Assembly: GCA_003979335.1 (NCBI GenBank)
Contig: RYWC01000054.1
Location: 1 to 5,460, forward strand
Source of the DNA: Clostridia bacterium
Lineage (GTDB): Bacteria > Bacillota_A > Clostridia > Christensenellales > Borkfalkiaceae
Reading direction: 5' to 3'
DNA length: 5,460 nt
Under the pieces are notes generated by a model. That model ran no database searches and was not told the origin of the DNA. It was given only the letters and a program-made list of their open reading frames with translations. The translations under genes were made by a program, and so were the position numbers. Within the stretch, counting starts at the first letter, position 1, and the number at the start of each line of letters is the position of its first letter. Below are positions 1,357 to 5,460 of the stretch, piece by piece.

Positions 1357-1962
1357 TCATAAATCCTGTTTTCTTTTGAACGCCGAAATATAAAAACCTG
1401 CGCCCATCGAAATTTGCGGAAGAAACTGCAAACCGTACTTTGTTGCCCTGTGTCCGAGAGGCGAAATAAGGTTAATTAAAGCATATTCGGGGTGCAATTC
1501 CAAGAATCTGCAAACCGTACTGTCATTTTCTTCTGGCAAAACCGAACAGGTGGAATAATAAAGCACACCGTCTTTTTTAACGTAACGCGAACAGTTTTCA
1601 AGAATTTTCAACTGAGTCTTGGTAAGAGAAACCAAATCGCTTTCCTTGCGGAAAAGCTTGATATCGGGGTTTTCGTTTATGACGCCAGTACCCGAACACG
1701 GCACGTCGCAGAGCACGCCGTCAAATGCCTGCTCCCACTCGGAATTATATACTAAGCTATCCGCCTGAATAGCATTAACATTATTCGCGCCCATACGCTC
1801 TGCATATGATTTTATAAGTTCCACCCTGTGAGGGTGCAGTTCGCAAGCACAAACGCTATCGCATTTTTTTGAAAGCAATACCGATTTACCTCCGGGCGCG
1901 GCGCAAGCGTCCAAAAAACTGCCGCACGGAGCAATTGCGTTGCATATTGCAACCGAGCCCAC
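1357..1962 (-). CDS. rsmB: C-terminal part of RsmB: SAM-dependent m5C methyltransferase domain, probably untranslated in this orientation
   Basis: This 201-codon stretch has all catalytic motifs of the RsmB/NOP2 family: the SAM loop DACAAPGGK (18-26), DVPCSGTG (86-93) with the cysteine that releases the product (C89), and YSTCSVLPEEN (136-146) with the nucleophilic cysteine (C139). It ends QFLPQISMGAGFYISAFKR as the family usually does. The real coding frame extends upstream through the left inverted repeat (to 2001), where DGGFFCGDYTFQSV matches the family's G-x-F-x-x-Q-D/S linker entry. The GTG at 1962 is an internal valine codon in the intact protein, has no ribosome binding site, and lies downstream of two in-frame stops. 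Independent translation is therefore doubtful. Without the NusB-like domain and linker, activity on rRNA would be unlikely. Confidence 0.8.
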   Translation of the reverse strand: MGSVAICNAIAPCGSFLDACAAPGGKSVLLSKKCDSVCACELHPHRVELIKSYAERMGANNVNAIQADSLVYNSEWEQAFDGVLCDVPCSGTGVINENPDIKLFRKESDLVSLTKTQLKILENCSRYVKKDGVLYYSTCSVLPEENDSTVCRFLELHPEYALINLISPLGHRATKYGLQFLPQISMGAGFYISAFKRKQDL

Positions 1963-1980: not shown

Positions 1981-2001
1981 GCCGCAGAAAAAGCCCCCGT
2001 C
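1981..2001 (-). repeat. Left arm of the 21-bp inverted repeat bounding the rsmB inversion
   Basis: On the minus strand this arm starts with GACGGGGGCTTTTTCT (perfect 16-bp core, next to the interior), then G, then CGGC. It encodes D-G-G-F-F-C-G of the RsmB linker in frame. It differs from the other arm only at 1985. Similarity stops abruptly on both sides. Confidence 0.9.
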
Positions 2002-2067
2002 TGGTTAGTCAAACGGCTCAGACGCAGTTATAAAAGCGAGGCGGCGCAGATTTTGTGCGCGGAAAGT

Positions 2068-2592
2068 TTAGGCGTCTGCGTGCGTTTTGAACGGAACAAA
2101 GAAAACTATCTTAATAAGCCGCACAAGGTTTCGCCTTTTGAAAACGTTTACTTTTTCGATAATTTTGTTCGCGACGGGGGCTTTTTCTACGGCCAATCTT
2201 TCATCTGTTTTTTCGGGCAAAGGCGGAATTTTATATGAACGCAAAAATGCGTTTACAAAGCCCGACGCGCCGTCCTTGCCGGTTTTTTTAGTGAGTTCAA
2301 CCGCATAATCGACAACCATATAGTCGTGCTTTTGCATAAATTCAAGCATATAAAGCGCAATTTTTATAATAATTTTAATTGCGTTTTTAGGCTGTTTTTT
2401 TACGTTTGCCCCTATAATATGCTCCAAATACACGTCTTTTTCGAGAACGCCGTAACAAATTTTTACGGTACGCGCTTTATTCAAAGGTTCAACCGGAGTT
2501 TCGGCTATCGCCTGTTTTAAAAACTTGCCGCCTATATAAACTTTACTGAGTATAAGATAGGGGTCTGTAAGCGGATTATTCAAGCACGTCAC
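2068..2592 (-). CDS. rsmB: N-terminal part of RsmB: NusB-like domain plus a 34-residue tail read from the inverted segment
   Basis: This is the 174-residue frame open in the present orientation. Residues 1-140 are genuine RsmB: the NusB-like helical domain, with typical segments such as ICYGVLEKDVYLEHII, IALYMLEFMQKHDYMVVDYA and GFVNAFLRSYK. The last seven of these residues (AVEKAPV) are encoded by the right inverted repeat. Residues 141-174 come from reading the inverted segment backwards. They form a basic, hydrophobic tail (NVFKRRNLVRLIKIVFFVPF) unrelated to RsmB, ending at TAA 2068-2070. The product would lack the whole methyltransferase domain and cannot methylate RNA. Whether it is stable, or has a role such as RNA binding, is unknown. 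The GTG start follows the family alignment only loosely; TTG at 2583 is an alternative. Confidence 0.75.
   Translation of the reverse strand: MTCLNNPLTDPYLILSKVYIGGKFLKQAIAETPVEPLNKARTVKICYGVLEKDVYLEHIIGANVKKQPKNAIKIIIKIALYMLEFMQKHDYMVVDYAVELTKKTGKDGASGFVNAFLRSYKIPPLPEKTDERLAVEKAPVANKIIEKVNVFKRRNLVRLIKIVFFVPFKTHADA
2173..2193 (+). repeat. Right arm of the 21-bp inverted repeat bounding the rsmB inversion
   Basis: On the plus strand this arm reads GACGGGGGCTTTTTCT, then A (2189), then CGGC: 20 of 21 identical to the left arm in inverted orientation. On the minus strand it encodes A-V-E-K-A-P-V, just before the W-L-V motif of the RsmB linker. The repeat thus encodes two different peptides on its two strands, both fitting the family. 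Confidence 0.9.
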
Positions 2593-3494: not shown

Positions 3495-3959
3495 TCAGTC
3501 CTCCGCAGGCAGGTCGTAAAGCTCGTCGGCTTTGTCAATATAAAGCACGCCGTCCAGATGGTCGATCTCGTGACAGACTGCACGGGCAAAAAAACCTTCG
3601 GCGGTGATTTTATGCTTCTTGCCGTTGCGGTCGCGGTACTCCGCCTTTACTTTTAGGGGGCGGCGCACAGTACCCTGTACACCTTTTACAGACAGGCAGC
3701 CCTCCGGGCCTACCTGTTCCCCTTTTTGCGAAACTATGACGGGGTTAATCATTTCGAAATAGCCCTCGTCCACGTCGATTACTACAACGCGTAGCGCAAG
3801 ACCTATCTGAGACGCGGCAAGTCCCGCTCCGCTTTCGGCGCGCACGGTTTCTTTCATATCCGTAAGAAGATTATGCAATTCCGCATTGAACGCTTTCACT
3901 TCTTCGCACTTCTGTCTTAAAACAGGGTCGTCTTTCTGAACGACGTATCTTTTTGCCAT
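3495..3959 (-). CDS. def: Peptide deformylase
   Basis: Def removes the N-formyl group from new polypeptides, using a ferrous ion (or similar metal), and acts at the ribosome exit. The 154-residue protein has the three deformylase motifs in order: motif I G44-AGLAASQIG, motif II E86-GCLS-90 with metal ligand C88, and motif III H130-EIDH-134 with the two metal-binding histidines and catalytic E131. Length and motif spacing fit a short type 1 bacterial deformylase. ATG 3959 has AGGAG 6 nt upstream and begins 9 nt after the priA stop. fmt follows after 1 nt, so the enzymes that add and remove the formyl group are made from adjacent genes, as in many bacteria. No missing residue was seen. Confidence 0.98.
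   Translation of the reverse strand: MAKRYVVQKDDPVLRQKCEEVKAFNAELHNLLTDMKETVRAESGAGLAASQIGLALRVVVIDVDEGYFEMINPVIVSQKGEQVGPEGCLSVKGVQGTVRRPLKVKAEYRDRNGKKHKITAEGFFARAVCHEIDHLDGVLYIDKADELYDLPAED
3500..3504 (-). promoter_or_regulatory. Ribosome binding site of fmt (GGAGG)
   Basis: GGAGG on the minus strand lies 6 nt before the fmt ATG, inside the last codons of def. It decides the fmt start at 3493 and implies coupling to def translation. Confidence 0.8.
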
Positions 3960-3970: not shown

Positions 3971-5460
3971 ATGATAAATTCGTGGGGTTTTCTTCCACAT
4001 AGACAAGCACGTCCGCAGTGGAAGACTCAGCCGCAATTTTATAGATTTTTTCCAAAAGCTTGCCGCTTTTAAGACGCATAAGCGTCTGATAACGGTGTTT
4101 GCCCTGTATTTTCTTTACGGGCGAATGCATTTTATTTAAAAATATAAATTCCTCGGGATTTTCCGAACGGAGTTCTTCAATCGCCAAATACGCTTCTTTA
4201 AGAGCCGCAACCGTCTTCTTTTCGTCTTCGCCCGTCACCATTACACGGCAAATGAGGGAAAAAGGAGGAAAAAACGTAGCTTTGCGAATTTCTATTTCGT
4301 TTCTGAAAAAGCCGTTATAATCGTAATTGACGGCATACCGCAAAATATAATTTTCAGGGCAATAGGTCTGAAGAACTACTTTACCTTTCATATCCGCCCT
4401 GCCGCTTCTGCCCGAAACCTGCGTTATAAGCTGAAAAGTTCTTTCTCCGCTCCTGTAATCGGAAAACTGCAAACTCATATCCGCGTCCAAAATGCCGACA
4501 AGGGTTACAGAAGGAAAGTCGTGCCCTTTCGCAATCATCTGAGTTCCGACAAGGATATCCGCCTCTTTTTTCGCGAACTTACTCAATATTTTATAATGTC
4601 CGTCTTTGCCGGACACAGTGTCGTTATCCATTCTTATTATACGCGCCTCGGGATAAAGCGCATTGAGTTCGGAAACCACCCTTTGCGTGCCCGTGCCGCT
4701 GTATCTGACGTGGGTTCCTCCGCAATCGGGACAGGCGGAAAGCATCTTATACCTTGCGCCGCAGTAGTGGCATTTCAAACAGTCGTCCTCGCTGTGATAT
4801 GTAAGGGAAACGTCGCAATTTTCGCATTTTGCGACATAGCCGCAGTCCCTGCAAATTACCTTTTGCGAATACCCCCTGCGGTTCAAAAAAATTATCGCCT
4901 GATTTCCGCATTTCAACGTTTTGTCAAGCTCTTCTCTGAGCGCTGAAGAAAAGGGCGACGCATTGCCCCTTTTTACTTCTTTGCGCATATCGGCGATAAT
5001 TATTTCCGGCATAGGTTGCTTATTTATTCTTTCAGGAAGTTCTATTAAATTGTATTCCCCATCCGCCGCCTTTGCAAAACTTTCAACGGAAGGGGTTGCG
5101 CTTCCGAGAATGAGCTTACAGCCGTTGTATTCCGCGCGCATTTCTGCGACAGTCGCGGTGGAATATCTGGGCGCCGTTTCAGAAAGATAAGAGGAGTCGT
5201 GCTCTTCGTCTATTATTATAACCCCGAGATTTTCAAGCGGAGCGAATATGGCGCTTCTTGCGCCTATGGCAATTTTTGCTTCGCCGGAACGGAGGCGCCA
5301 CCATTCGTCGAATCTTTCGCCTGCCGTAAGACCGCTATGCAATATTGCGGCTTCGCCTTTAAAACGCGCGCGGAGCTGCGTAAGCATCTGCGGAGTTAAA
5401 GAAATTTCAGGCACCAAAAAAATCGCGGTTCTGCCGGCGGCTATTTCATCCGCTATAAGT
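3969..5460 (-). CDS. priA: Primosomal protein PriA (replication restart helicase), N-terminus outside the window
   Basis: PriA is a superfamily 2 3'-5' DNA helicase that recognises stalled forks and reloads the replicative helicase. The window holds the last 496 residues. The frame stays open to the edge; the TTG at 5417 is an internal leucine in FLVPEISLTPQ, helicase motif Ia. Counting from the first complete codon: Walker B DEEH (84-87), motif III LGSATPS (118-124), eight zinc-binding cysteines in four CxxC pairs (203/206, 212/215, 230/233, 243/246), motif V GTQMIAKGHD (305-314), motif VI QVSGRSGR (347-354), and the C-terminal domain with FPPFSLICRV. The missing part, about 240 residues by comparison with the family, would include the 3'-end-binding domain, winged helix and Walker A. 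It heads the gene run leading to def and fmt, an arrangement common in Bacillota. No defect is visible in the part shown. Confidence 0.97.
   Translation of the reverse strand, partial: LIADEIAAGRTAIFLVPEISLTPQMLTQLRARFKGEAAILHSGLTAGERFDEWWRLRSGEAKIAIGARSAIFAPLENLGVIIIDEEHDSSYLSETAPRYSTATVAEMRAEYNGCKLILGSATPSVESFAKAADGEYNLIELPERINKQPMPEIIIADMRKEVKRGNASPFSSALREELDKTLKCGNQAIIFLNRRGYSQKVICRDCGYVAKCENCDVSLTYHSEDDCLKCHYCGARYKMLSACPDCGGTHVRYSGTGTQRVVSELNALYPEARIIRMDNDTVSGKDGHYKILSKFAKKEADILVGTQMIAKGHDFPSVTLVGILDADMSLQFSDYRSGERTFQLITQVSGRSGRADMKGKVVLQTYCPENYILRYAVNYDYNGFFRNEIEIRKATFFPPFSLICRVMVTGEDEKKTVAALKEAYLAIEELRSENPEEFIFLNKMHSPVKKIQGKHRYQTLMRLKSGKLLEKIYKIAAESSTADVLVYVEENPTNLS

Follow-up and report, generated by a model that had tools for sequence, protein, structure and literature searches.

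The gene rsmB of this Clostridia contig is interrupted by a segment that lies in reverse between two nearly identical inverted arms. This raises the question whether the segment is a reversible ON/OFF switch of the gene, as proposed in the first-pass annotation, or the trace of a single mutation. In the window, i.e. the whole stretch of 5,460 nucleotides that was analysed, reading frames and profile matches identified five minus-strand genes: rlmN, rsmB, fmt, def and priA, the last of which is truncated at the window end. As sequenced, the frame of rsmB is split in two. A 174-aa ORF (2068..2592, minus strand) encodes the N-terminal, NusB-like part followed by a foreign tail of 34 residues that comes from the inverted segment, and a 201-aa ORF (1357..1962, minus strand) encodes the C-terminal methyltransferase part. 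The linker of 57 codons is found on the plus strand between these two minus-strand parts. The five other gene frames of the window are open.

The identity of the split gene was addressed by profile comparison. The top NCBIfam match of the N part was the RsmB model NF011494 (55.7 bits, residues 25-135), and the C part matched the same model with 184.4 bits over profile positions 252-443 of 444. The nearest relative, the intact protein P0001, displays the precomputed domains PF01029 and PF01189, and RsmB models match both halves in the window. RsmB models were the best family matches, yet the flipped protein (254.6 bits) and intact P0001 (263.8 bits) both score below the curated cut-off of NF011494 (319). 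Since P0001 also stays below this value, the shortfall of the flipped protein is not caused by the inversion. The same scores imply that the assignment of 16S C967 as target of the enzyme rests on homology. Within fmt, which scores above its own family cut-off, a weak inverted repeat (37 nt, 73%) was observed at 2798-2834 / 2865-2901.

The two arms at the borders of the segment were clearly recognized, in agreement with the interruption by an inversion between inverted repeats that had been described. The C-side arm (1981..2001, plus strand) codes on the minus strand for the conserved residues DGGFFCG, which are the same in P0001, and the N-side arm (2173..2193, plus strand) codes on the minus strand for AVEKAPV, where P0001 has AVECSAPV. 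They are complementary at 20 of 21 positions, enclose a spacer of 171 nt and have 16 nt as their longest common perfect stretch. Among 2000 first-order Markov sequences of equal length, only one contained a perfect repeat whose arms measured 16 nt or longer and lay less than 400 nt apart. Flipping positions 1981-2193 opens a single minus-strand frame of 411 codons, as had been stated. The extent of the segment required a correction. The sole mismatch between the arms (1985/2189) sits with the flanks as in P0001 (AVE..., ...FCGD), and the inverted unit is thus located inside the mismatch, within about 1986-2188. A flip of the full 1981-2193 would place A and Y at the mismatch positions, unlike P0001. 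The segment is bounded by the inverted repeat, and its maximum extent compatible with P0001 is 1986..2188 (no strand assigned), the flip of which opens the frame.

Such an arrangement is what an intragenic inverton would produce. The segment would be inverted by a site-specific recombinase, or through recombination of the two repeats with each other, so that rsmB alternates between ON and OFF, the window displaying the OFF state. The near-perfect repeat located exactly at the segment borders, the opening of the whole frame by one flip and the lack of decay in the spacer and in both halves all favour this explanation. Repeated flips at existing repeats are described for SPO75 and YBZ1 in the yeast study (PMC8604942), where this re-inversion occurs with very short spacers. 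A search with the 15-nt core of the arms, allowing up to 3 mismatches, gave a further point in its favour: four matches were detected in the window against 0.21 expected, and none of 200 shuffles gave as many. Apart from the two arms themselves, the matches are located in def (3756-3770, 2 mismatches, 13/15) and in priA (5433-5447, 3 mismatches, 12/15), which could hint at a recurrent site. On the other side, no recombinase was identified by profile scan among the six frames of the window. Between 1900 and 2700, no promoter-like site was found (1.5 in shuffles), and the two terminator-like sites represent no excess over shuffles (1.6). At the inverted junction (1997-2016, minus strand), the coding strand of rsmB forms a hairpin that precedes a T run and resembles a terminator. 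The Rfam scan of the window returned nothing at gathering scores.

The comparison with P0001 was more informative. This very close relative provides the intact (ON) form that was to be sought among relatives: it shares 96% identity with the flipped product and represents a cluster of 80 member sequences. Leaving the arms aside, the two proteins show 2 differences over the 130 residues of the N part, 7 over the 207 residues of the C part and a single one over the 57 residues of the spacer. All three parts have hardly diverged, indicating that the event is recent. Counted from the same start, the flipped locus encodes 408 residues and P0001 409, and this is the only gap between the two. As an inversion conserves length, no flip of the present sequence can yield the 409 residues of P0001, and bases must have been lost. 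The same was observed across the 120 listed relatives. One alignment column, located at the N-side arm, is filled in all 120 and empty in the flipped protein (the remaining nine gap columns correspond to an insertion in a single relative). The pattern used to measure the distance between anchors matched 95 of the 120, and all 95 display the same distance, one more than the window. The claim that one flip repairs the gene perfectly was therefore not upheld.

The nature of the missing codon points to its origin. None of the 120 listed relatives has K in the two N-side positions, where 83 of them have CS. Over 16 nt, the K codon with its neighbours matches the reverse complement of the C-side arm without a mismatch, and the C-side arm codes for residues found in P0001 and similar to those of the other relatives. 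It thus appears that the C-side arm served to overwrite the N-side arm, the ancestral form of which is seen in P0001 at the protein level. At both sites, the P0001 protein has the same flanking residues as the window, and a shorter or imperfect ancestral repeat at which the strands switched may have existed there. The loss of a codon together with the duplication of an arm argues against a conservative recombinase acting on existing sites.

The overwriting and the inversion may also have happened in two steps. An intact allele would first have undergone homogenisation of its N-side arm (CS to K), and recombination or a second switch between the arms, by then near-perfect, would have inverted the segment afterwards. 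In yeast coding genes, nine of the ten spacer inversions described began from arms that were already perfect (PMC8604942), which would fit such an order of events. However, the intact K intermediate that it requires is absent from the 120 listed relatives, which are cluster representatives, and the two-step path is considered highly improbable. The lineage of the window may also have carried the K codon from earlier on, which would speak against a one-step event.

In order to see whether the repeat exists independently of the inversion, the DNA of relatives was compared at the two sites. The set of 30 loci was made of best matches, with 8 from the genome contig scan and the best 20 of the 398 genomes of the family of G005. 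In the 29 loci of the count (L019 was left out, and eight loci duplicate a place that was already in the set), the two sites share 3-6 nt, as seen in 21 distinct pairs. A repeat comparable to that of the window was absent at both sites in all 29 readable loci (21 distinct). When a wider region around the sites was compared in eight loci, the longest shared stretches were 5-9 nt, and none in the register of the arms reached 16. Searches for DNA of the same species gave eight relatives at 67-78% in the genome contig scan, nothing closer than 78% in the 398 family genomes and no match in the viral contigs scanned. P0001 was matched in 383 of these 398 genomes, the nearest at 78%. In at least nine of the 383 (G017, G033, G035, G135, G196, G213, G220, G304 and G376), the match was weak (E 1e-17 to 1e-23) and looks like a paralogue. 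Together with these nine, the 15 genomes where P0001 was unmatched suggest that rsmB may be missing, or lost through incomplete assembly, in some family members.

Taken against the inverton, these results weigh more than the points in its favour. The repeat is missing at both sites in the relatives that were read (29 of 30 loci), P0001 has no K codon to complete the N-side arm, and the flip leaves the protein one codon short of all 120 relatives. Repeats were found at the borders, as in invertons, whereas comparison with the relatives showed neither a repeat independent of the orientation nor an exact flip-back. With no recombinase among the six scanned frames in addition, the reversible switch as proposed was not supported, and we regard it as unlikely. 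A switch in rsmB appeared in no title of the literature search, which was done at title level with most subscription journals and preprints outside its scope. The proposal had also relied on the repair of the gene by one flip, which would not be expected after decay. The same observation also fits a single recent mutation without later decay.

An OFF form circulating in other strains could have been visible in protein databases. Neither of the two broken rsmB halves was found among about 5.8 billion clustered proteins, which counts against the inverton within the limits of a database clustered at 90%, where the search sees representatives and not the alleles inside the cluster of P0001. The search with the N half gave 68 matches, none of which shares even one 5-residue word with the 34-residue foreign tail. 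With the C half, nothing above 75% was detected among the best 120 of 3973 matches. No second inverted copy was recovered with either half among the cluster representatives. The best match of the N half was P0121 (131 aa), encoded on a single contig of 3397 bases. Over the 125 residues that were compared from the start onwards (equivalent to 2210-2583 of the window), it shows no difference from the window, and it terminates with QPTNF shortly before the N-side arm would begin, at a distance of a few codons. The possibility that P0121 displays the segment in a second arrangement was rejected, as QPTNF occurs in no frame of the window or of 16 relative loci. P0121 would thus represent a further lesion in this lineage or the joining of contigs.

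The finding of the intact form alone elsewhere (the P0001 cluster with its 80 members, and no OFF half) also agrees with an artefact, i.e. a chimera produced by template switching during amplification, or a misassembly, with an intact rsmB in the living cell. Template switching of the same kind can occur in vitro. Common assembly words are longer than the 16 nt of the longest perfect match between the arms, and the joining of correct reads should not produce a hybrid arm, so that a plain assembly error is unlikely. The open state of the five other gene frames speaks against an artefact as well. The inverted form may still be a chimera from an amplified library, and the undecayed spacer and halves would be expected from such a chimera, from a switch and from a mutation of very recent date. 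On balance, an artefact of either kind is judged fairly unlikely.

The explanation that best accounts for these data, and which we consider likely, is a recent and probably static template switch of the polymerase, which would have broken rsmB and generated the inverted repeat as a by-product. The inverted spacer, the near-identical arms and the one-codon difference from the 120 listed relatives are seen directly in the sequences, whereas the union of overwriting and inversion in one event, the polymerase mechanism, the static state and the loss of function are inferred from them. The spacer is inverted relative to the relatives and, at the protein level, one arm has been homogenised to the other, both of which are hallmarks of this process. 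During replication of one of the two sites, the growing strand would have switched to the complementary template of the other. There, about 190 nt comprising the C-side arm and the spacer would have been copied in reverse before the strand returned at a short stretch of shared sequence. The product would carry the spacer in inverted orientation and a copy of the C-side arm in place of the N-side arm, leaving rsmB as two fragments. The replacement of the N-side arm by a copy of the C-side arm would account at once for the near-perfect inverted repeat and for the loss of one codon. The combination of arm homogenisation and spacer inversion corresponds to the signature of polymerase template switching as published for yeast (PMC8604942). 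In REG2, both changes are described together, with a 5-bp arm turned into a perfect arm of 16 bp (PMC8604942).

With rsmB in two fragments, methylation of 16S C967 has probably been lost in this strain, a prediction derived from homology. For E. coli, the rsmB knockout is described as accumulating 17S precursor rRNA with a mild drop of the reporter yield (PMC7056703). Given this phenotype, the loss of rsmB in this strain need not be lethal.

Once made, the repeat could in principle serve a later re-inversion. The template-switch accident would then have created the 20/21 repeat which now lets the segment flip both ways. In its ON state, rsmB would deviate from the ancestral gene by a single codon. 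Such a self-made switch is seen as quite unlikely. Should flipping back take place at this repeat, the locus would illustrate how one error of replication can give rise to an intragenic switch. In either case, the locus calls for caution in searches for invertons, as the repeat bordering an inverted segment may be the product of the inversion and not its cause. The comparison with relatives, here over a single codon, separates the two.

Among known systems, the coli system reportedly described by Schofield et al. in 1992 is similar in that rare inversions between short repeats take place without a dedicated invertase. A conservative exchange would keep all bases, unlike in the window, which has lost one codon and carries two copies of one arm. 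With intragenic invertons (Chanin et al., 2024, Nature, as cited in PMC11868660 and PMC11892184), the locus shares a segment within a coding frame that is bounded by inverted repeats and of which one orientation opens the frame. It differs from them by the absence of the repeat in relatives, the lost codon, the lack of a recombinase in the scanned frames and a window sequence seen in one orientation only. The locus also resembles the template-switch mutations described by the Ripley model and in yeast REG2 (PMC8604942), with a copied arm and an inverted spacer in a coding gene, of recent origin. Unlike the yeast events reported there, the present one concerns a bacterial gene and produced a knock-out rather than amino-acid replacements. 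Yeast inversion spacers measured 2-5 bp, short spacers being favoured (PMC8604942), against 171 nt here, so that the case would fit yeast template switching in kind, not in size.
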